NCBI GenBank assembly: GCA_016204975.1
Contig: JACQJP010000045.1
Location: 1 to 52,525 of the forward strand
Origin: Elusimicrobiota bacterium
Lineage (GTDB): Bacteria > Elusimicrobiota > Elusimicrobia > JACQJP01
DNA length: 52,525 bases
Direction of reading: 5' to 3'
In this document: positions 20,981 through 45,734 of the stretch, one piece after another
Layout of the letters: each line of letters begins with the position of its first letter
How positions within the stretch are numbered: position 1 is the first letter of the stretch
The notes under the pieces: model-generated
The model's input: only the letters and a program-made list of their open reading frames with translations
What the model was told of the DNA's origin: nothing
The model's database searches: none
Position numbers and translations under genes: made by a program

Positions 20981-21976
20981 ATGAGCAAAACCCTATGGAC
21001 GCTCTGGCTGGCCGGGACGGCCCTGTTTGTTTGGATGGTGCGGGAGATTGGATGGGGCGAGGTGATGGGTCTCGTCCAAACGGCGGGTTTTTGGATCGGT
21101 TTTTTTGCCCTCTTCTATGCCCTGGCCCAGAGCTGCTTTGTCGAGGCGTGGCGCCTGACCATACAGAATCCCACCCCCATCCCCTTTCGTTGGCTGTTTA
21201 GGGTCTATCTCGCCGGAGACGCCCTCAACATCCTAATCCCTTCCGGAAACCTGGCCGGGGAACCGGTCAAGGTCCGGCTTTTGACCCAACGCTTCCCCCA
21301 ATCCCATGCCACCGCCTCGGTCACCATCAACAAGTTTTCCGAGCTGGTGGCCATGACCCTCTTCATCGCCGCCGGGGTAGGCATCGGGATTCTATACTTG
21401 ACCCTGCCCGGCACCTTTCAAATCGCCTCCCTGATCACGCTCTTGGGCCTGGGAGGGCTTCTGGTGGCCGTCTTTCTCCGCCAAAAAAAAGGATTCTATG
21501 CCCCGCTGGCGGCATTTGCTCAGAAACTGGGAATCGGCAGGAAAAGCCTGGAGAAACGACTGCCCAGGATCCGGGAGATAGACCATGCCATCGGCAACTT
21601 CTACCAGAACCATCCCCTTAAATTTCTGGGTTCGCTTCTATTCAACTTCCTGGGCTGGATGGGAGGAGCGGTGGAGGTCTACTGGATCCTGCGCCTGTTG
21701 GACCTTCCCGCCTCTTGGTCCCATGCCCTGGCCATTGAGGCGCTGTCTCTGATCAGTTACAGCCTTCTGTTTTTCCTCCCCGCCCGCATCGGAGGGGGAG
21801 ACGGCAGCCGTGTGCTGATCTTCATCGCACTCGGCTTTTCCTCCGCGACCGGGCTGGCCTTCAGCATCATCCGCAGACTTCGGGAGATGATTTGGATCGG
21901 ACTGGGACTGCTCTCCCTGTTGACGCAGCACCTCAGGCCTACCAGAGCCCTACCCCAACCGGCGCGGCCACAATGA
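20981..21976 (+). CDS. flippase-like membrane protein (UPF0104/LPG synthase TM-domain family)
   Basis: The 331-residue protein has about eight hydrophobic helices and the family hallmarks: PTPIPFRWLFRVYLAGDALN, then LIPSGNLAGEPVKVRLL near the middle and FFLPARIGGGDGSR near the end. The family includes the membrane half of MprF and AglD-like proteins, often inferred to move lipid-linked intermediates across the membrane. No soluble synthase domain is present. Its stop overlaps the start of the triple-fusion gene (ATGA), so a role in exporting that pathway's product is a reasonable inference. Confidence 0.8.
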   Translation: MSKTLWTLWLAGTALFVWMVREIGWGEVMGLVQTAGFWIGFFALFYALAQSCFVEAWRLTIQNPTPIPFRWLFRVYLAGDALNILIPSGNLAGEPVKVRLLTQRFPQSHATASVTINKFSELVAMTLFIAAGVGIGILYLTLPGTFQIASLITLLGLGGLLVAVFLRQKKGFYAPLAAFAQKLGIGRKSLEKRLPRIREIDHAIGNFYQNHPLKFLGSLLFNFLGWMGGAVEVYWILRLLDLPASWSHALAIEALSLISYSLLFFLPARIGGGDGSRVLIFIALGFSSATGLAFSIIRRLREMIWIGLGLLSLLTQHLRPTRALPQPARPQ

Positions 21977-24381
21977 TCGCTAAAGACCGCACCCTCCGCA
22001 AAGCTCCGGGTACCGGCCGGGCCCCCACCGGGGGCCAGCGTGCCAGCACCCTCCGCGCCATCCTATTTGACTTTGGGGGGACCCTGGATGGTCCAGGGGT
22101 GGCGTGGCTGGACCGCTTCCTTCCCATCTACCGATCCCACGGAATCTCCGTGGACGCGGAAAACTTCCGGAAGGCCTTCTTCGAGGCGGATGACTGCCTC
22201 TCTCAACGCTACCCGTTGCGCCAAATGGGCTATCTGGAGACCCTGAAGGCCCAGGTAGAATCCGTGCTGAAAAACCTGGGATGCGAAAACCTTTCGCTGC
22301 AGGACTCCATCGCCGGAGAATTTTACCGGCAGGCCTATCGCACCATCCAGAAAAACATTCCCCTGCTCCAAGAACTCCGACGGAAATATCGCCTGGGAGT
22401 AATCTCCAACTTCTATGGCAATCTGGAAAACGTGCTGAAGGAAACGCAACTGATTTCTCTCTTGGATGTCTGGACCGATTCCTCCCTGGCCGGCTGCGAA
22501 AAGCCGGACCCCAGAATCTTCCAGGCCACTCTGGAGAAGCTCCAGCTTTCCCCCGCAGAAGCTCTCTTTGTGGGAGACTCCGTTTCCCGGGACATGGTGG
22601 GGGCCGCAAGGGCCGGGATGCCCCATGCGTGGCTCAGCCCATCTAAAAACCCCTGTCTGGAAGATATCTCTCCAACGAACTTTCCCTGTTGCCGACACCC
22701 GATCTTGGGCGCTCTGCAAGAGCTGCCCTCCCTCTTGGCCCCCAGCGTGCCGGCGGGAATCATCGCCGCCGGAACAGGGCAAAGGCTGAAGGCCCTCCGA
22801 GGAAACCTCCCCAAGGCCCTCTTTAAAATCCAAGGCAAACCCCTTCTGCACCACACCCTGGGGAACCTCCAAAGCGCCGGCATCCGCCGAGGCGTCTGCA
22901 TCCTGAACACCCAAGGCAAAGGGATGGACTCCGGGTTACAGATGGCATGGATTTTCCAGGACACCGCCTCCTCCTGGGAAAGCTTTCGAATCGTGGCGGA
23001 CCGTCTGGCGCAAATCTCCGAATCCTTCCTGGTGACCACCGTGGATGCCCTCTACCCCCCGCAGAAGTTGAAAGAATTTCTCCAGGCAGCTTCCAAAAAC
23101 TCCCACTGGGACGCCGGATTAGCCATCACCCCTTTTGTGGAGGATGAAAAACCCCTCTGGGCGGAAATCTCAGAAAAAGGTAGAATAGTCCGGCTGGGGT
23201 CCTCGGTTTCCAACTTTCGGTATGCCACCTGCGGCCTCTACTATCTTCGCAGCGCCTTCTGGAGGAGATTCCGGCAGGACCGGACCCCAAAAAAAAGCCT
23301 CCGTGAATTTTGGATCCAGTCCCTGAAACGGAAAGCCAGACTGGGCTCTTTTCTGATCGAAAAGGCGATTGACGTGGATCGGCCGGAGGATGTAAAAACG
23401 GCGGAGGAGTTTTTAAAATCCATGGCACGGCCCCCCAGTGGAATTGAAAAAATAGGAGAGCGGGTCCGATGCCTGGGCATCTATCGAGAACCCCTGCACT
23501 CCCCCAATCGGATTCCAGACGACGCCCTCATCCTGGAGTCGGTTCTCCAACACCTTCAGTCTCATGGCCTTCAAACCGAGGTGCAGCAGCCGCGGGTGCT
23601 GGACTCCCTGCGGGCCCGTGACTACGACCTAATTCTGCCGATGTGCGAGTCTCCGAGGGCCCTGGAAGAGCTCTTCCGCCTGCAAAATGAGGGCGCAAAG
23701 ATTCTCAATTCTCCCCAGTCCGTCTTAGCCTGCTACCGGACACAGATGGTCCCCCGGATGGAGCAGCTTTCCGAGGTTCTTTTTCCTCCCACTCGAATCT
23801 ATCCTGCAGACTCCTCGCAGCAATGCCTGCAGGAGGAACTGGCGGAGAACTCTTCTATCAAGATCGGATCCCTATGGATCAAGCGTGGGGACGTGCACAA
23901 CACCTGCGACCGAGACGTCGTCCGGCCCAGGAACTGGTCCGAGTGGGAGACGATCTCCCAAGATTTTCGCTCCCGGGGAATTGCCCAGGCGGTCTTTCAA
24001 AAGCACATCGAGGGAGACCTCTTGAAATTCTACGGGGTAGGGCCGGGCCGGTGGTTCTGCTGGTTCTACCATGATCCCGCCCGAGTCCGTCGCCATCCCT
24101 TCGCTCTCCCGGAGCTTCAAAAGAGCGTCACCGCCGCCGCGCAGGCCTTGCAGTTGGAAATCTTCGGAGGGGACGCCATCGTCACTCCCCATGGAGAGAT
24201 CTACCTGATTGATTTGAACAGCTGGCCCAGCTTCGCCAAATTCCGCGCCGAGGCTTCGGAAGAGATATCAAAATACATCCTCAGCTGCATCCCCAGACCC
24301 CGCCCCATCCCGACCGGCACCCTTCGCAGAGCTTCGGGTACCCGCCGGGGCCCCAGAGGGGCCCAGCGTGCATGGCGATGA
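21973..24381 (+). CDS. HAD phosphatase - nucleotidyltransferase - ATP-grasp triple fusion
   Basis: Three enzyme domains lie in one 802-residue chain. Residues about 30-240 are a HAD hydrolase (IFDF-type motif FDFGGTLD, motif IV VGDSVSRDMVGAA). Residues about 255-500 are a GlmU/IspD-like nucleotidyltransferase with intact IIAAGTGQRL and PKALFKIQGKPLL. From about 510 to the end is an ATP-grasp-like ligase (LILPMCESPRALEELF; KRGDVHNTCDRDVV; IFGGDAIVTP, EIYLIDLNSWPSF). The ATG at 21973 overlaps the preceding stop. Residues 7-25 or so and the last 21 residues are both encoded by copies of a palindromic repeat read in the same frame. The substrate is unknown; given Ino1 and a CDP-alcohol transferase downstream, CTP:inositol-phosphate cytidylyltransferase activity is a plausible inference for the middle domain. 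Confidence 0.82.
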   Translation: MIAKDRTLRKAPGTGRAPTGGQRASTLRAILFDFGGTLDGPGVAWLDRFLPIYRSHGISVDAENFRKAFFEADDCLSQRYPLRQMGYLETLKAQVESVLKNLGCENLSLQDSIAGEFYRQAYRTIQKNIPLLQELRRKYRLGVISNFYGNLENVLKETQLISLLDVWTDSSLAGCEKPDPRIFQATLEKLQLSPAEALFVGDSVSRDMVGAARAGMPHAWLSPSKNPCLEDISPTNFPCCRHPILGALQELPSLLAPSVPAGIIAAGTGQRLKALRGNLPKALFKIQGKPLLHHTLGNLQSAGIRRGVCILNTQGKGMDSGLQMAWIFQDTASSWESFRIVADRLAQISESFLVTTVDALYPPQKLKEFLQAASKNSHWDAGLAITPFVEDEKPLWAEISEKGRIVRLGSSVSNFRYATCGLYYLRSAFWRRFRQDRTPKKSLREFWIQSLKRKARLGSFLIEKAIDVDRPEDVKTAEEFLKSMARPPSGIEKIGERVRCLGIYREPLHSPNRIPDDALILESVLQHLQSHGLQTEVQQPRVLDSLRARDYDLILPMCESPRALEELFRLQNEGAKILNSPQSVLACYRTQMVPRMEQLSEVLFPPTRIYPADSSQQCLQEELAENSSIKIGSLWIKRGDVHNTCDRDVVRPRNWSEWETISQDFRSRGIAQAVFQKHIEGDLLKFYGVGPGRWFCWFYHDPARVRRHPFALPELQKSVTAAAQALQLEIFGGDAIVTPHGEIYLIDLNSWPSFAKFRAEASEEISKYILSCIPRPRPIPTGTLRRASGTRRGPRGAQRAWR
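21989..22043 (+). repeat. palindromic repeat copy A (translated, N-terminal)
   Basis: This 55-bp element lies inside the 5' end of the triple-fusion gene. It aligns without gaps to copy B with about eight substitutions. It contains a perfect 7-bp hairpin, GGCCCCC/GGGGGCC. It is translated as a peptide of the form TLR-K-APGTGRAPTGGQRA. Confidence 0.75.
24317..24371 (+). repeat. palindromic repeat copy B (translated, C-terminal)
   Basis: This 55-bp element spans the last codons of the triple fusion and ends just before the next start codon. The hairpin is GGGCCCC/GGGGCCC, with arms different from copy A but still perfectly paired. It is read in the same frame as copy A, giving TLRRASGTRRGPRGAQRA. 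Confidence 0.78.
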
Positions 24382-25748
24382 CCTCCCAGAGAACCCCCAT
24401 CTCCGACCCTTCCCGCACCCTCCCGCCCCAATTTCCCGGCCCACAGTCCCGCAGCCTGTTTGAGCAGGAACAAAAATACCTCGCCCCGGGCCTGCAAACA
24501 ATCGCCCTCTACTCGCAGCTCGCCTTGGAACGGGGCCAGGGGTGCCTCCTCTTCGACGCGGACGGACACTCCTACCTGGACTTTACCGCCGGAGTCGCCG
24601 TAGCCAGCCTGGGACACTCCCACCCCAGGTACGTCGCAGCCCTGGAGGAACAACTGGAAAAACTGACGGTCGGAAGCTACACCACGGATGTCCGAGCGCG
24701 GTTCGTCCAAAGACTGGCCACAGTCACCCCGCCGGGCCTGTCCCGAGTCCAACTCTATTCCTCCGGGGCAGAGGCGGTGGAGTCGGCCATTCGCCTGGCA
24801 AAATCCTACACCAAAAAATTTGAACTCATCGGATTCTGGGGAGGGTTTCATGGAAAGACAGGAGGAGTTTTAGGCCTTTTGGGAGACGATTTTAAAAAGG
24901 AGCTCGGACCCTGGGTGCCGGGAACCTATCTGGCTCCCTACCCCAACCCCTTCCGCTGCCCTCTGGGAACCCGAGGAGCGCATGACTGCGCTGGACACTG
25001 CGCGGAGTTTCTGGAGACCATCATTGAGAAAAGCACCTCCGGAAAAGTCGCGGCCATCCTCATCGAACCCATCCAAGGAACGGCCGGAAACGTGATCCCG
25101 GCGCCGGGCTTTCTCAAGCAGGTGCGGGAAATCGCCCGCTCCCACGATGCCCTCCTGATCGCCGATGAAATGATCACCGGCTTCGGACGAACCGGAAGAA
25201 TGTGGGGATGCGAGTGGGAGGGAGTCACCCCCGACATCCTCACCCTGGGGAAAGGCATGGCCAACGGATTTCCCGTCAGCGCCGTCCTCACCACCGAGGA
25301 GATCTCCCAGGCTGCGCCCTGGGCCAATCCCAGCGGCAGTTCCTCCAGCTACGGGGGAAACCCCTTGGCGGCAGCCGCTTGCCGCGTGACCCTGGAAATA
25401 ATCCTGGAGGAAAAGCTCCCTCAAAATGCCCAGGAGATTGGACACCAGCTCCTCCAACGCCTCCGAGGGCTCCAAGAAAAATACAGATTCATCGGGGAGG
25501 TGAGGGGACGCGGCCTTTTGATCGGGGTGGAGTTGGTGGAGGACCCCAAGACCCAAAAGCCCCTGCAAAAAAAAATCACAAGAGAAGTTTTTCAGGAATG
25601 CCTCCGCCGGGGGCTGCTGAGTATGTCCTACTCCCACATCCTCCGCATCAACCCCCCCTTGATCCTGACGCAGGAGGAGGCCGACCGCGGCCTGGAAATC
25701 TTAGACTCCGTCTTTTCAACCGTTGCCCAAAAGTTTCACCTGCAATGA
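24378..25748 (+). CDS. class III PLP-dependent aminotransferase
   Basis: This is a fold-type I aminotransferase of the GABA/ornithine/glutamate-semialdehyde class (456 residues from the ATG at 24378, which overlaps the previous stop as ATGA; an in-frame ATG at 24372 is possible). Landmarks are the ADEMITGFGRTG motif with the PLP-contacting Asp and the Schiff-base Lys at about 292 in LGKGMANGFPVSAV. The usual substrates carry a terminal amino group or aldehyde. Within this operon it may aminate the product of the neighbouring oxidoreductase; the true substrate is not readable. Confidence 0.9.
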   Translation: MTSQRTPISDPSRTLPPQFPGPQSRSLFEQEQKYLAPGLQTIALYSQLALERGQGCLLFDADGHSYLDFTAGVAVASLGHSHPRYVAALEEQLEKLTVGSYTTDVRARFVQRLATVTPPGLSRVQLYSSGAEAVESAIRLAKSYTKKFELIGFWGGFHGKTGGVLGLLGDDFKKELGPWVPGTYLAPYPNPFRCPLGTRGAHDCAGHCAEFLETIIEKSTSGKVAAILIEPIQGTAGNVIPAPGFLKQVREIARSHDALLIADEMITGFGRTGRMWGCEWEGVTPDILTLGKGMANGFPVSAVLTTEEISQAAPWANPSGSSSSYGGNPLAAAACRVTLEIILEEKLPQNAQEIGHQLLQRLRGLQEKYRFIGEVRGRGLLIGVELVEDPKTQKPLQKKITREVFQECLRRGLLSMSYSHILRINPPLILTQEEADRGLEILDSVFSTVAQKFHLQ

Positions 25749-26749
25749 GCACCTCCCTGCCGGCCTTACGGGGAGCCATCCTGGGCTTTGGCCAAGTGGC
25801 CGAGAAGGCTCACGCCGACGCCTGGCTCCAAACATCCCGCGTCCGGATCGTGGCCGTCTCGGATGTTCGTCAAGAACGTCTTCAGAAAGCCAAAAAATAC
25901 TTTTTAGAGGCCTCCCTGTATAACGATCCCCGAAGACTGTTCGAAAAGGAAACCCTGGATTTCGTAGACATCTGTACCCCTCCCCAAAGCCACGGCCCGC
26001 TGATCCTGGAGGCCCTGCGAAAAAAACTCCACGTGCTTTGCGAAAAACCCCTGACCCTGGACCCCAAGGAACTTCAGAAAATCACCCAACTCTGTGAAAA
26101 ACATCAAAAGAGCGTCTTCACCGTCCACAACTGGAAATACGCGCCCATCATCCAAAAGACGCGGGAGATACTGGACAAAAAGAGGATCGGCAAGGTCAAC
26201 TATATCGAGTTCCATACCCTCCGCAGCGCGCCCGCCTTCAGCGATGGACACTCCTCCAAAAATGCCTGGAGAAAACAACCCAGGATCGCCGGCGGAGGAA
26301 TCCTGGTGGACCACGGCTGGCACACCCTCTATCTGATCCAGACGCTGATGGAACAAAAACCCACCCGGATCACCTCCCGCCTGGAATACCTCGCTCCCCG
26401 CCTCGAACACACCGCGCGCTGTTGGTTGACCGGCAAAGGTTGGACCGGAAAGATCTTTTTGACCTGGAAGGCCTCGGAACGAAAAAATTGGGGGTTTCTG
26501 TTGGGAAGCAAGGGAAGCCTGGAGATCTGTGACGACCACCTGATCGTAAAAAACCAAAGCGGCCAGGCAGAGATATTCCGTTTCCCGCAAGCCCTCTCGG
26601 CCGGTTCCGCCCATCCCCAGTGGTTTGCCGCCATGCTTCCCAGTTTTTTTGAGGAGATGCGCGACCGAAAGTTCCGCTTTCAAAATCTCAAAGAGGCGAC
26701 CGCCTGTCTGAAACTCCTCAAAGAGGCCTACCAGAAAGCCAACAACTAG
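25745..26749 (+). CDS. Gfo/Idh/MocA-family NAD(P)-dependent oxidoreductase
   Basis: The 334-residue protein has an N-terminal Rossmann fold (GAILGFGQVAEKAHADAW), the family CEKPLTLD motif and the catalytic-region GGGILVDHGWHT. The family includes inositol 2-dehydrogenase and many sugar dehydrogenases, so oxidation of an inositol or sugar hydroxyl to a ketone fits the neighbourhood. The ATG at 25745 overlaps the aminotransferase stop (ATGA), and the stop overlaps the next GTG by one base. The frame is open far upstream, but that region lies over the aminotransferase and is not used. Confidence 0.88.
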   Translation: MSTSLPALRGAILGFGQVAEKAHADAWLQTSRVRIVAVSDVRQERLQKAKKYFLEASLYNDPRRLFEKETLDFVDICTPPQSHGPLILEALRKKLHVLCEKPLTLDPKELQKITQLCEKHQKSVFTVHNWKYAPIIQKTREILDKKRIGKVNYIEFHTLRSAPAFSDGHSSKNAWRKQPRIAGGGILVDHGWHTLYLIQTLMEQKPTRITSRLEYLAPRLEHTARCWLTGKGWTGKIFLTWKASERKNWGFLLGSKGSLEICDDHLIVKNQSGQAEIFRFPQALSAGSAHPQWFAAMLPSFFEEMRDRKFRFQNLKEATACLKLLKEAYQKANN

Positions 26750-27978
26750 TGCCATCCCCTCAAAAACCCGCCCTGCTGTTTCTGGAAGCCGTTCCGAAGA
26801 AGGCCCAATCTCTGGCCGGTCTGCCCTGGCTGGAGCGCATCCTCTTCCAAAGCTCCCGCGCGGCAATCCCGGAGCTGATTGTGACCGGTGAAGCTCCGGA
26901 GCTGCGCAGGCACCAAAAATCCAACCTCCGCTGCCCCTCCGGGCTCCGGCTCCACTGGATCTCTTCTGAAAACCCGAACGCCCCCAGCCAGATTCTATAC
27001 CTGTTGGGAAAGGAGTTCTGGCTGCTCTGCTCACAGACGCTGATCCGGCCCGCCTGGATGCAAGCTCTTCCCACGCCTGCGACCGCCCCTCTCCTGCAAA
27101 TCCTCACCCCCAGCTCTGTGCCCGCCGCCGCGTACCTCCGACTCAAATCCCCCACGCCGTTTGCCCAAGCCTGGAAAGCCGCCAAGGGAAACTTTAGCGC
27201 CCTGATGCGCCTTTTGCCCTCCTACCTGACGACCCAAAAAATCAGCGCCCCCGCCCAGGCGATTTTCCGGCTGCGCCTGGAATCCGAGACCGGCGCGGCG
27301 CAGCGCTGGCTCTTTCAAACCCTGATCAAAGAAAACGAGGGATTCATGTCCCGGCACCTGGAGCGCAAAATCTCTTTTCAGATCACCCAACAGCTTCTTA
27401 AAACTTCCCTCCGCCCCAATCAGGTGACCTGGGGCAGCATCCTCTTGGGAGCGACGGGGGGGCTCTTGCTGGCCACAGGCACCTTTGGGTGGAGCTTGGG
27501 CGGGGCTCTGCTTTTTTGGATCCACTCCATCGTAGACGGCTGCGACGGCGAGCTGGCCCGCCTGAAATACCTGGAGACCCCCCAGGGAGGGGCTCTGGAT
27601 TTTTGGGGGGACAATGTCGTCCATGCGGCGGTCTTTGCCGGAACGGGAATCGGCCTGTTTCGGCAAACCCAGCAGATGACATTCCTCCTGCTGTCCGCCT
27701 CAGCTTCCCTCTTTGTGATCCTCACCGCCCACTGGGTGTTTCGCAAAGAAGGCCCGCAATTTACAGGAATCCATTGTGCCTCCAAACTTCAAGACCGCTT
27801 GGCCCAAAGGGACTTCATCTATGTTTTTCTCCTTTTGGCGGCTTTGGGACGCCTGCCCTGGTTTCTGTGGGCCGCCGCCATCGGCACGCCTTGTTTCTAT
27901 TTCCTTCTCCGGGTGCCGGCGCCTTGGAAATTTGCTATGCTGAAGGGATGCCGCAAAAGTTTCTCTCTTTTTTTCTAA
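26749..27978 (+). CDS. CDP-alcohol phosphatidyltransferase with degenerate N-terminal nucleotidyltransferase domain
   Basis: The C-terminal half (about 215-409) is a membrane CDP-alcohol phosphotransferase with the complete motif D-x2-DG-x2-AR-x8-G-x3-D-x3-D (from DGCDGELAR to DFWGD), which transfers a phospho-alcohol from a CDP carrier. The N-terminal 200 residues look like a decayed NTP-transferase: AGLPWLERILFQSSRAAIPE and ELIVTGEAPEL fit the fold, but the GxGxR and PK signatures are missing. The same two-domain order is found in the bifunctional inositol-1-phosphate cytidylyltransferase/DIPP synthase of hyperthermophiles. It starts with GTG, overlapping the upstream stop by one base. Confidence 0.85.
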   Translation: MPSPQKPALLFLEAVPKKAQSLAGLPWLERILFQSSRAAIPELIVTGEAPELRRHQKSNLRCPSGLRLHWISSENPNAPSQILYLLGKEFWLLCSQTLIRPAWMQALPTPATAPLLQILTPSSVPAAAYLRLKSPTPFAQAWKAAKGNFSALMRLLPSYLTTQKISAPAQAIFRLRLESETGAAQRWLFQTLIKENEGFMSRHLERKISFQITQQLLKTSLRPNQVTWGSILLGATGGLLLATGTFGWSLGGALLFWIHSIVDGCDGELARLKYLETPQGGALDFWGDNVVHAAVFAGTGIGLFRQTQQMTFLLLSASASLFVILTAHWVFRKEGPQFTGIHCASKLQDRLAQRDFIYVFLLLAALGRLPWFLWAAAIGTPCFYFLLRVPAPWKFAMLKGCRKSFSLFF

Positions 27979-29744
27979 GCCTCATTCTGCTTTGGCCCCA
28001 CCCTGCCTTCGCGAAAACCTCGACCCTCCGGAGAGGCCCAATGGAAGCGGGGCGCCTCTCGGTCCGGCCCCTCGCCGCCCCTTCCTTTTCCTTCGGAATT
28101 GGGGGAAATCCGGTGCTTCTCTTCATGGATTACGTCCTCTCCCTGCAGGACCCGCCCTTGTCCCCTCTACACAGCCAGGCAGAGCGGAAGGGTGCGCCCG
28201 AATCGTTTGCTTCTGAAGAGTTCGAACCTTCCCGGGAAGTTTTAAAGGACTTTCGCCTGCAGCAAGAAAAATCTCCTTCCGCATCGAAACGCCAATCCTC
28301 CGTCCCCGAGCTCCGCGAGGGGGCTGTGGAGGGCGCCAAAATTCCGGAGTCTCCCCAGGAGCTGATCGAGCTGTACCGAACCGCCCAAAAAAAATCCGAG
28401 GAGTCTCCGCGGATTCTCCCCAGGCTCCGCGACTACCCGGCACAGGCTCCCTTCCTTAAGGAGATGGTCCGCCTGGCCGATATCGAGAGGTTGGAGCCGG
28501 CAAACCGCCGCCTCCTGCAACAGACCATCGGGCAAGACCACCCGACCTCCCAGACCCCGCGCGTTCCAACCGCCCACCGCATCCTCCACGCGCGGGATGC
28601 CCTCGCCGCCTCCATTCCCGTTCTAAAACCCCCGCCCCTTTACAATCTTCCCTGGGCTGCTCTCCCAAAGCCGCCATACCTGCGTCAAGAGTTGCGACAA
28701 ACGATCGGCACCATCCTGACCCACACCCTCCTCCAACCTCAGAAGAACCTGACCCGCTCCGTTTCCGAGCCCTCCGCACAAAAGAAGGAGCTGGCGCACC
28801 GCCTGCTCCAGCGTCTCCTCCAGTTCCAACAGACCTCTTCGGAAATGCCTCCCATCACCCTCAATCTACCCATCCTGACCTTTCTAGGCAACCTCTACTC
28901 GACCGTGGAGGAAATCCATCTCACATACGGCGAGCGTCCGGAGACGGACCTGCCCCAGATGGTGCAAAGGTACCAAACCCTGGGGAACAGACTCCTCCAG
29001 GTTGCGCAACGCCTCCCACAAGCTCGACCGGAAGCCGAGACGATCCTGCAGGAACTCCAGAGAGAGATGGCCCGACACATCGTGCCTCCCCGCAAGGAAC
29101 AACTGGCCCAACTCCTCTCTTCCTCTTACCTTCAGACCGTCCTTGGGGCCCTGACCGCCACCATCCTGTTCCTCCTGGCCCCCACCATGCCCAGCGGCGG
29201 CTCAGAGCTTCTGGCCTGGGCCTACGGGCTGGCCGCCTTCCCGCGCGCCCCAGCACAGAGTCCGGAGGTTCCCTTTCCATTTCTCCAGGAACTCAAGAGG
29301 GCCAAGCAGGTCGCCCGGCGGGAACTCTTCACCGATCTTCTGATCCTGACCGAGGCCCAAGCAGAGCTCCTTGGAACCCAGTGGCGCTGGAACTTCTTTA
29401 CCTTTCAGGCTCCCGCAGAAACCAAACAGATTCGAGTGGAGCCCTCCGGCTCCAAGGTTTCCATCGCCCTGGCGCCCGTCCCGACGCCTCGACCGGAGGT
29501 CGAACCCGCTTTCGATGCCCGCGCCATTTTCCAAAACTCCCGGGCCCTCAGCCGGGAACAAAGTTGGGACTTTAGCCCACAATCCCTCACCATTCGGTTG
29601 AACTCCGAGGGTCTCTATGAAATCCGCCTGGAAGAAAGTCCGCTCAACTATCACGTCTTCGCCCTGGAGGGGCAATTCCTAAGAGGAGGACGCGTGGAAA
29701 AAGATCTGCGCTCCGCCCTCAACAGCTTGGAAGCCGCTCCATGA
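27948..29744 (+). CDS. secreted protein of unknown function in the inositol-type operon
   Basis: I do not recognise this family. From the ATG at 27948 (31-bp overlap with the preceding gene) the 598-residue product has a clear signal peptide, MPQKFLSFFLSLILLWPHPAFA. The remainder is Gln-, Leu- and Pro-rich and mostly helical. One further hydrophobic stretch is near residue 400 (VLGALTATILFLLAPTMP), followed by a more beta-like C-terminal region (about 470-598). It may be periplasmic and anchored. Its position between the CDP-alcohol transferase and Ino1 suggests a role in handling the product. An ATG overlapping its stop (29741) opens a ten-codon ORF of doubtful meaning. Confidence 0.65.
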   Translation: MPQKFLSFFLSLILLWPHPAFAKTSTLRRGPMEAGRLSVRPLAAPSFSFGIGGNPVLLFMDYVLSLQDPPLSPLHSQAERKGAPESFASEEFEPSREVLKDFRLQQEKSPSASKRQSSVPELREGAVEGAKIPESPQELIELYRTAQKKSEESPRILPRLRDYPAQAPFLKEMVRLADIERLEPANRRLLQQTIGQDHPTSQTPRVPTAHRILHARDALAASIPVLKPPPLYNLPWAALPKPPYLRQELRQTIGTILTHTLLQPQKNLTRSVSEPSAQKKELAHRLLQRLLQFQQTSSEMPPITLNLPILTFLGNLYSTVEEIHLTYGERPETDLPQMVQRYQTLGNRLLQVAQRLPQARPEAETILQELQREMARHIVPPRKEQLAQLLSSSYLQTVLGALTATILFLLAPTMPSGGSELLAWAYGLAAFPRAPAQSPEVPFPFLQELKRAKQVARRELFTDLLILTEAQAELLGTQWRWNFFTFQAPAETKQIRVEPSGSKVSIALAPVPTPRPEVEPAFDARAIFQNSRALSREQSWDFSPQSLTIRLNSEGLYEIRLEESPLNYHVFALEGQFLRGGRVEKDLRSALNSLEAAP

Positions 29745-29797
29745 CCGAGGGCTTGCCCCGAGGAAATGGTTAAATCAGCATACTGGGAGATTTTACC

Positions 29798-31186
29798 GTG
29801 ACCCAAAGCCTGCGTGACATCCCACCCCCTTCCGGAAAACTGGGAGTTCTCCTTGCGGGTATGGGGGCGGTCACCAGCACCTTTCTGGCCGGCGTGGCCT
29901 TGGTCAAAAAAGGAATTGGACGCCCCTTCGGCTCCTTGAGCCAGCTTCAAACCATCCGCTTGGGAAAGCGCTACGAAGGCCGAAATCCCCTGATCAAGGA
30001 TTTCATCCCTCTGGCGGAGCTTTCGGACCTGGTCTTCGGAGGCTGGGACGCCCTGGGCCGCAACCTCTACGAAACCGCGCTCCAGGCGGGGGTCCTTCCG
30101 GAAAATATGCTCCAGCATGTTCGAGGGGAACTGGAGGGGGTCCTTCCCTGGAAGGCCGTCTTCGACCGGCAGTACGTCCGGAACCTCAATGGGACCTTCG
30201 TCAAAGAGATTCCCAACAAGATGAAGCAGGCGCAAGCCCTGATCCAAGACATCGAGCGCTTCAAAAAAGAACAGGGACTTAAAAGACTGGTGATCCTTTG
30301 GTGCGCCTCCACCGAAATCCACCTGGAGCGCTCCCCGGTCCACGAGAGCTTGGGCGCCTTCGAGAAGGGGCTGGAGGAAAACTCCCCGGAGATCCCGCCC
30401 TCCATGATCTACGCCTACGCCGCCCTTCAGACCAAAACCCCCTATGCCAACGGTGCCCCCAACCTGGGCGCGCACATCCCGGCCCTGTGGGAGCTGGCGG
30501 AGAAAAACAAGGTGCCCATCGCCGGGCGGGATTTTAAAACCGGGCAAACCATGATGAAGACCCTGGTGGCCCCGGGGCTGAAGATGCGGATGCTGGGACT
30601 CCACGGCTGGTACTCCACCAACATCCTGGGCAACTTAGACGGCGAGGTCCTGGCCGACCCCCTCTCCTTCCGCGCCAAGGAGAAATCCAAAATCTCGGTC
30701 CTGGACACCATCCTGGAACCCAAAATGTATCCGGAGCTCTACGGAGAGTACTGCCACAAGGTGCGCATTGACTACTATCCCCCCAGGGGAGACGCCAAGG
30801 AAGGTTGGGACAATATCGATCTGTTCGGCTGGCTGGGGCTGCCCATGCAGATCAAGATCAACTTCCTGTGCCGGGACAGCATCCTGGCCGCCCCCATCGT
30901 CTTGGACCTGGCCCTCTTTTTGGACTTGGCCCGGCGCGCCGGGCTTTCCGGAATCCAGGAATGGCTCTCCTTTTACTTCAAATCCCCCATGTGCCGGCCG
31001 GACCTGGAACCCGAGCACGACCTCTTCATCCAGCATTTAAAACTCAAAAACACCTTGAGGCTACTCATGGGAGAGGAGGTCTTAGACCACTCCGGCCTGG
31101 ACTACTACGAGGAGCTTCCCCCCGGAGCCGGCACCGCCCCACCCGCCCAACTCCTGAACAAAGCCACCCCCTTTCAAACCTCCTAG
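29798..31186 (+). CDS. ino1: myo-inositol-1-phosphate synthase
   Basis: This NAD-dependent enzyme isomerises glucose-6-phosphate to 1L-myo-inositol-1-phosphate, the committed step of inositol synthesis. The 462-residue protein has the family features VLLAGMGAVTSTFLAGV (NAD site), LVILWCASTEIH, PYANGAPN, GRDFKTGQT and the catalytic region GWYSTNILGNLDGEVL. It starts at GTG 29798 with GGGAGA 8 bp upstream and 53 bp after the previous stop. It is the strongest clue that the operon makes an inositol compound. It is convergent with the thioredoxin/TPR gene, 32 bp away. Confidence 0.92.
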   Translation: MTQSLRDIPPPSGKLGVLLAGMGAVTSTFLAGVALVKKGIGRPFGSLSQLQTIRLGKRYEGRNPLIKDFIPLAELSDLVFGGWDALGRNLYETALQAGVLPENMLQHVRGELEGVLPWKAVFDRQYVRNLNGTFVKEIPNKMKQAQALIQDIERFKKEQGLKRLVILWCASTEIHLERSPVHESLGAFEKGLEENSPEIPPSMIYAYAALQTKTPYANGAPNLGAHIPALWELAEKNKVPIAGRDFKTGQTMMKTLVAPGLKMRMLGLHGWYSTNILGNLDGEVLADPLSFRAKEKSKISVLDTILEPKMYPELYGEYCHKVRIDYYPPRGDAKEGWDNIDLFGWLGLPMQIKINFLCRDSILAAPIVLDLALFLDLARRAGLSGIQEWLSFYFKSPMCRPDLEPEHDLFIQHLKLKNTLRLLMGEEVLDHSGLDYYEELPPGAGTAPPAQLLNKATPFQTS

Positions 31187-41202: not shown

Positions 41203-41219
41203 CACGATAGTGCCCCTCA

Positions 41220-41313
41220 GCACGCTGGGAGCCTCTGGCTCCCCGCCTGATACTCGTAGCTCTGCGGAGAGTGCTGGGCACCCGGCGGGTACCCGAAGCT
41301 CTGCGAAGGGTGC
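41220..41313 (-). repeat. palindromic repeat, copies C1 and C2
   Basis: Two head-to-tail copies of the 55-bp element lie in the opposite orientation to A and B. C1 (41220-41274) is full length; its hairpin arms read GGGAGCC/GGCTCCC on the - strand, again altered yet paired. C2 (41281-41313) is a 33-bp partial copy identical to the first 33 bp of copy B. Confidence 0.75.
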
Positions 41314-41377
41314 TAGGTCCAAAGTCCTATTCCCCTCTAGGCCTTTTATTTGCCTTTCTATGGGCCTTCCGTCCCAT
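41313..41377 (+). repeat. CCTAGG promoter element, copy 2
   Basis: It starts at the edge of C2 with CTAGGTCCAAAG. It contains CTAGGCC and TATGGGCCTTCCGT and ends in CCCAT at 41377, exactly 21 bp before TAAAAT (41399-41404). It is the most diverged of the three copies. Confidence 0.55.
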
Positions 41378-45588: not shown

Positions 45589-45684
45589 CCTACGCAGAGC
45601 TCGTCACGCCCCACTGGGGCTTCCTACGCCCCTGGCCTCTGGCCGGGGGTCGGGTACCAGCCGGGCGCCCAGAGGGCACCAACG
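45567..45684 (+). repeat. palindromic repeat, copy D (rearranged)
   Basis: It contains a partial copy (CCGCAAAGCTCGG), then GCACCCTACGCAGAGCTCG and, after an unrelated insert with its own short hairpin (CCCCACTGGGG), the distal part (CGGGTACCAGCCGGGCGCCCAGAGG). It overlaps the start of the proline dehydrogenase gene. Confidence 0.6.
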
Positions 45685-45734
45685 TTCTAGAATAGGACCG
45701 GGGATTCCCGCAAGATGATTTTACGGGGAAATTC

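Follow-up and report, generated by a model that had tools for sequence, protein, structure and literature searches.

A conserved gene set for a putative inositol-derived head group, linked to hopanoid genes in several bacterial phyla

The route to di-myo-inositol phosphate (DIP) in hyperthermophiles consists of Ino1, IPCT, DIPP synthase and a phosphatase. In both DIPP synthase and AF2299 of Archaeoglobus fulgidus, the donor pocket is small and hydrophilic and the protein has a six-helix architecture of the kind that goes with soluble acceptors; the donor site of AF2299 has been shown to hold CDP-glycerol (PMC4634129). For Bacteroidetes, Heaver et al. 2022 (PMC9246714, which cites Jorge et al. 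2015 for the CDP-inositol lipid route) proposed that inositol lipids arise via CDP-inositol through a cluster encoding MIPS, a nucleotidyltransferase (NTase), a CDP-alcohol phosphotransferase (CDP-AP), a HAD protein and a lysylphosphatidylglycerol (LPG)-synthase-like membrane protein. On the part of that paper used here, the core idea of inositol lipids made via CDP-inositol is thus already known. Hopanoids, the sterol-like membrane lipids of bacteria, rank among the key biomarkers in geology. Enzymes or roles have yet to be assigned for several steps in how they are decorated and handled, HpnL among them; hpnL is described as a gene whose function is not established (PMC12583986). Our searches of the open-access literature yielded no description of inositol-bearing hopanoids, and nothing relevant that connects hopanoids with CDP-alcohol phosphatidyltransferases, with inositol phosphate synthases or with Elusimicrobiota.

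The stretch of DNA analyzed here (the window; 52,525 nucleotides) comes from an Elusimicrobiota metagenome-assembled genome of 1.50 Mb (55 contigs, 87% complete). Between positions 20981 and 31186 it carries seven tightly packed genes on the plus strand (Table 1). The initial annotation had listed seven genes with overlaps or short gaps; the coordinates of these ORFs were confirmed, with junctions of -4, -10, -4, -1, -31 and +53 bp. Its domain assignments also agree with Pfam and NCBIfam (LPG_synthase_TM/HpnL-like, HAD, NTP transferase, Aminotran_3, GFO_IDH_MocA, CDP-OH_P_transf and Inos-1-P_synth). The ATP-grasp domain falls below the Pfam threshold, and its AlphaFold model has a clear ATP-grasp fold (pLDDT 92.9). 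HAD, NTase and ATP-grasp form a single fused ORF in the window and three genes in most relatives. A short GC-rich palindromic repeat is present in several copies in the window (21987-22055, 24317-24373, 41219-41314 on the minus strand and 45650-45692), two of which lie at either end of the fusion gene, where they are translated in frame as part of it.

Table 1. Genes of the operon in the window
Feature	Position	Strand	Evidence
HpnL-like flippase-family membrane protein (LPG_synthase_TM)	20981..21976	+	PF03706 3.5e-33; TIGR03476 HpnL 156.9 bits, under 195.65 cut-off
Fused HAD (22048-22752) / nucleotidyltransferase (22753-23430) / ATP-grasp (23452-24330)	21973..24381	+	Pfam HAD, NTP_transf; AlphaFold models
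Class III aminotransferase (PLP)	24372..25748	+	PF00202 1.3e-107; invariant PLP lysine and Asp
Gfo/Idh/MocA NAD(P)-dependent dehydrogenase	25745..26749	+	PF01408 4.3e-24; Lys/Asp/His triad
CDP-alcohol phosphotransferase (CDP-AP), degenerate NTase-like N-terminal domain, AF2299 architecture	26749..27978	+	PF01066 1.6e-9; profile vs PDB
Secreted protein, signal peptide, orphan	27948..29744	+	no Pfam match; no relative in any fetched locus
Ino1, inositol-3-phosphate (myo-inositol-1-phosphate) synthase	29798..31186	+	PF07994 8.3e-94; 7nwr 9.2e-153

One gene of the seven does not belong with the others. Relatives of the secreted protein (598 amino acids) were sought in all fetched loci and none was found, so the protein was placed outside the conserved system and ruled out as a pathway member; it is apparently a lineage-specific insertion.

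The enzymes of the core point to inositol as the starting material. By sequence, the Ino1 of the window is a clear ortholog of solved inositol-3-phosphate synthases. The NTase domain has an intact signature (G-x-G-x-R plus K), and its model (pLDDT 94.8) matches 4jd0, the inositol-1-phosphate CTP transferase of Thermotoga maritima, best among PDB folds (TM 0.83), followed by sugar-1-phosphate enzymes; 4jd0 is also its top full-length sequence match. No unrelated sugar enzyme ranks ahead of it, and the earlier suggestion that the domain could make CDP-inositol gains from this kinship with a known inositol-1-phosphate cytidylyltransferase, the activity itself being predicted. Because of this kinship, CDP-inositol or a derivative is most likely the activated form.

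The CDP-AP had been credited with a complete catalytic motif, and all eight residues of the signature are indeed intact (D263, D266, G267, A270, R271, G280, D284 and D288). Its N-terminal ~180 residues form a degenerate NTase-like domain that lacks the glycine loop. The protein thus has the makeup of the AF2299 type, a degenerate cytidylyltransferase-like domain joined to a CDP-AP domain in which all eight signature residues are conserved. A profile search against the PDB agreed, ranking AF2299 (7.7e-41) ahead of DIPP synthase (1.1e-25) and PIP synthase (6.9e-18). The degenerate N-terminal domain and a score of 70 bits against a cut-off of 580 (NF041135) speak against a DIPP synthase; its third-ranking match to PIP synthase and 42 bits against 170 (NF045883) set it apart from the bacterial enzyme PgsA1. 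It appears to be of the 6-TM type. By analogy with the solved structures, a small hydrophilic pocket would fit a CDP-inositol-like donor, and the six-helix architecture would count against a lipid acceptor. Several Elusimicrobia genomes encode a second AF2299-like CDP-AP elsewhere, without Ino1 or the remaining operon (L052, L055-L060), and a second CDP-AP is paired with an HpnL-like gene at L121:3716-5457 and L147:9361-11057.

The aminotransferase (D265 and the PLP-lysine K294) and the Gfo/Idh dehydrogenase (K101/D189/H193) have intact catalytic residues in the window, and the PLP lysine and Asp of the former and the Lys/Asp/His triad of the latter are invariant across their families. The best NCBIfam relative of the dehydrogenase is inositol 2-dehydrogenase (1.6e-21, far under the cut-off of that family). 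The activity of the HAD domain is less certain because every family member has Gly in motif I (DFGGTLD) where a second Asp is usual. Judging from its sequence and model, the ATP-grasp protein may act as a ligase or as an inositol-phosphate-kinase-like enzyme. In the fold search, ArgX/LysX, Ddl, RimK and PsnB lead (TM 0.71 to ArgX), Vip1 ranks 19th, and no ITPK is among the top 50. The sequence profile has ITPK as its top natural match, a weak one over the C-terminal ~55 to 70 residues (E of 0.003 to 0.02). An invariant D-x-N marks the family, which we take to resemble ITPK, ligases presumably carrying E-x-N. An ITPK-like kinase was not accepted as established, given the weak profile match and a de novo designed protein that scores as well as ITPK in the same search.

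To follow the operon across genomes, we queried 60 relatives from the class with the CDP-AP and then fetched wider stretches. The order HAD-NTase-ATP-grasp-aminotransferase-dehydrogenase-CDP-AP-Ino1 is the same in several families of the host class. A GTDB scan with the ATP-grasp alignment gave 155 relatives, and the best 80 of these 155 came from Elusimicrobiota, Methylomirabilota, Rokubacteria, Nitrospirota, Nitrospinota, Desulfobacterota, Myxococcota and Hydrogenedentota; the gene set is common to bacteria of at least seven phyla. The full order is kept in Elusimicrobiota, Methylomirabilota and Nitrospirota and partly in further phyla, and nearly all loci that are not interrupted by a contig end have the gene order of the window. 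This conservation across phyla is far above chance, and the genome survey that the initial annotation had called for has borne out conserved co-occurrence. In many of these uninterrupted loci an HpnL-like gene precedes the core genes, and most operon loci outside Elusimicrobiota include such a gene in the stretch that was fetched. In the ATP-grasp tree, the proteins of one Elusimicrobiota group (L116, L118 and L132) branch with other phyla and not with the remaining Elusimicrobiota, which suggests transfer or an old duplication.

The link to inositol extends beyond the window. Ino1 adjoins the operon in 38 of the 80 fetched loci and was found somewhere in the genome in all 31 operon genomes tested (reached through the GTDB scan). 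Our co-occurrence sample comprised 217 genomes of the class Elusimicrobia and 24 genomes from other phyla. Within the class, 61 genomes have both the operon and Ino1, 5 the operon only, 12 Ino1 only and 139 neither (Fisher P = 2e-35, with related genomes not being independent). The homologs thus keep company with Ino1 rather than lying apart from it, and the inositol origin proposed earlier holds. Further Rokubacteria (L163, L164, L166 and L173) have a different, shorter Ino1 subtype inside an SHC-HpnM-(HpnL)-HpnN cluster, which suggests that hopanoid synthesis recruited Ino1 independently there.

Outside Elusimicrobiota, the operon is physically linked to hopanoid genes. In Hydrogenedentota locus L120, the genes for squalene-hopene cyclase (SHC), HpnH (531 bits; cut-off, 225), an HpnG-like protein, one further protein, HpnN (875 bits; cut-off, 752) and an HpnL-like protein are followed in one direction by HAD, ATP-grasp, aminotransferase, dehydrogenase and CDP-AP, with the HpnL-like gene immediately before the HAD gene. 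In Methylomirabilis, L124/L168 runs from HpnM, HpnN, SHC and HpnL(-like) through HAD to Ino1. In Rokubacteria (L161 plus L121), a single cluster holds HpnH, SHC, HpnM, a second CDP-AP, HpnL-like, Ino1, CDP-AP, HAD, NTase, ATP-grasp, aminotransferase, dehydrogenase and HpnN; L162/L125 and L167 have a similar arrangement. Nitrospirota locus L129 has HpnM upstream and HpnH downstream of the operon. We thus count physical linkage to SHC/HpnH in L120, L124, L161, L162, L167 and L129. SHC, HpnH, HpnG, HpnM or HpnN occurs in the fetched flank of 10 of the 24 non-Elusimicrobiota loci, and SHC is present in 22 of the 24 genomes. In the Elusimicrobiota loci, including the window, the operon does not adjoin SHC/HpnH, and the link there consists of co-occurrence and the HpnL-like gene in the window. 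SHC and HpnH adjoin each other in Elusimicrobia, and the host genome has an intact adjacent pair on a contig (C36) separate from that of the window. Among the 217 genomes of the class, 50 have both the operon and SHC, 16 the operon only, 13 SHC only and 138 neither (Fisher P = 5e-23, again over related, nonindependent genomes).

The CDP-AP behaves differently from the rest of the operon. In two families of the class (f10 and f14), CDP-AP and SHC are both missing in 8/8 genomes (P = 2e-6 among operon genomes), and Ino1 and the core genes are retained despite this absence. The aminotransferase is kept in 7/7 loci examined from this clade and the dehydrogenase in 6/7. The six CDP-AP-less loci placed in the ATP-grasp tree form one branch, and the joint loss looks like one event in a single clade. 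No operon genome lacks CDP-AP and has SHC except three fragmented assemblies (G104, G159 and G175), which show a partial match or an operon truncated by the end of a contig. Conversely, SHC was undetected in eight operon genomes with CDP-AP, seven of them 73 to 85% complete MAGs and one (G057) 93% complete. These eight genomes, like the 13 that have SHC and no operon, count against the hopanoid reading. Because Ino1, NTase, dehydrogenase, aminotransferase and ATP-grasp persist without hopanoids, we assign them to a head-group branch. The CDP-AP is the step whose occurrence follows the hopanoid, which argues that the head group is probably transferred to a hopanoid as a phosphodiester where hopanoids are made.

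From the gene content, its conservation and the linkage to hopanoid genes, we see an even chance that the operon produces a head group derived from inositol, in activated form, and that a phosphodiester joins this head group to a hopanoid. Ino1 would convert glucose-6-phosphate to inositol-1-phosphate, which the NTase would activate with CTP, either as such or in a modified form. The dehydrogenase and the aminotransferase together would turn a ring hydroxyl into an amine, the ATP-grasp enzyme would append another group, either acyl or phosphate, and a phosphate would be removed by the HAD enzyme. The AF2299-type CDP-AP would move the phospho-head group onto a bacteriohopanepolyol at its hydroxylated side chain, and the lipid would be moved by HpnL/HpnN/HpnM-type proteins. 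The head group is probably inositol derived and aminated. The initial annotation had proposed an inositol-derived phosphodiester; inositol and the CDP-AP step are supported, and the association with hopanoid biosynthesis, which it had overlooked, shifts the likely product from a stand-alone phosphodiester to a hopanoid head group. Its suggestion that the product is perhaps amino-acylated gained no clear support from the analyses of the ATP-grasp enzyme. More tentatively, the product may be an undescribed class of hopanoid phospholipids, bacteriohopanepolyols with a phosphodiester-linked (amino)inositol, made by an operon conserved in at least seven phyla and with HpnL in the same system, a possibility that we hold with more doubt than confidence.

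The acceptor could instead be an ordinary diradylglycerol. The operon would then make an aminated inositol phospholipid, much as in the CDP-inositol routes proposed for Bacteroidetes/Rhodothermus, and the hopanoid genes would be linked to it through a shared membrane only. The Bacteroidetes cluster, as far as the consulted part of PMC9246714 describes it, lends this some weight, and so does the persistence of the core operon and Ino1 in the clade without SHC. We nevertheless consider it rather unlikely, in view of the one-direction clusters with SHC, HpnH, HpnG and HpnN and of the loss of CDP-AP together with SHC. A soluble compatible solute related to DIP has only a slim chance: AF2299 and not DIPP synthase is the closest solved relative of the CDP-AP, the operon is linked to genes of lipid synthesis and transport, and the recovered carriers are not hyperthermophile lineages. 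In its favor, CDP-AP and NTase are each related to one half of the IPCT/DIPPS enzyme, and soluble acceptors are used by the 6-TM CDP-APs whose structures are known (PMC4634129).

The persistence of the aminotransferase and the dehydrogenase in the clade without SHC and CDP-AP also bears on whether they act on the hopanoid side chain, by reduction and by an HpnO-like step that aminates ribosylhopane to give aminobacteriohopanetriol, with Ino1, NTase and CDP-AP adding phosphoinositol separately. The operon enzyme is of class III, and class III aminotransferases prefer terminal aldehydes. HpnO is itself an aminotransferase that is hard to separate from other "aspartate aminotransferase family" proteins (PMC12583986). 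A hopanoid substrate is unnecessary in that clade, however, and we find this division of labor improbable; an assignment of the aminotransferase simply as HpnO is disfavored because the gene is kept in genomes without SHC.

If the hopanoid-linked head group is real, it would add a new lipid class, provide a pathway for AF2299-like enzymes and furnish a set of marker genes for lineages such as Methylomirabilota, Rokubacteria and Elusimicrobiota. Compared with known systems, the operon shares with the DIP route an inositol-1-phosphate synthase, an IPCT-like NTase of predicted activity, a CDP-AP with an intact motif and a phosphatase-family protein. However, its NTase and CDP-AP are separate proteins, the latter retaining only a degenerate NTase domain, and it adds an aminotransferase, a dehydrogenase and an ATP-grasp enzyme and is linked to hopanoid genes. 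The plain DIP pathway was rejected because the CDP-AP is AF2299-like, and bacterial PIP synthesis because PIP synthase ranks clearly lower, in line with the initial view that the operon differs from both. AF2299, the best-scoring solved relative, has the same fusion of a degenerate cytidylyltransferase-like domain to a CDP-AP domain; its site holds CDP-glycerol, whereas a CDP-inositol-like donor is proposed here. The hpn clusters and composite bacteriohopanepolyols (BHT cyclitol ether and aminotriol) have SHC, HpnH, HpnG, HpnL, HpnM, HpnN and side-chain decoration in common with our system. In the pathway of PMC12583986, in contrast, the cyclitol ether comes from N-acetylglucosamine via HpnI/K/J, with no inositol phosphate synthase or CDP-AP. 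The Bacteroidetes cluster, compared by its description only, resembles the operon in all the members named above and in its CDP-inositol donor; the part of PMC9246714 used for the comparison does not mention an aminotransferase, Gfo/Idh, ATP-grasp or hopanoid genes. This extension and the hopanoid linkage give the operon a realistic chance of making a new lipid class.
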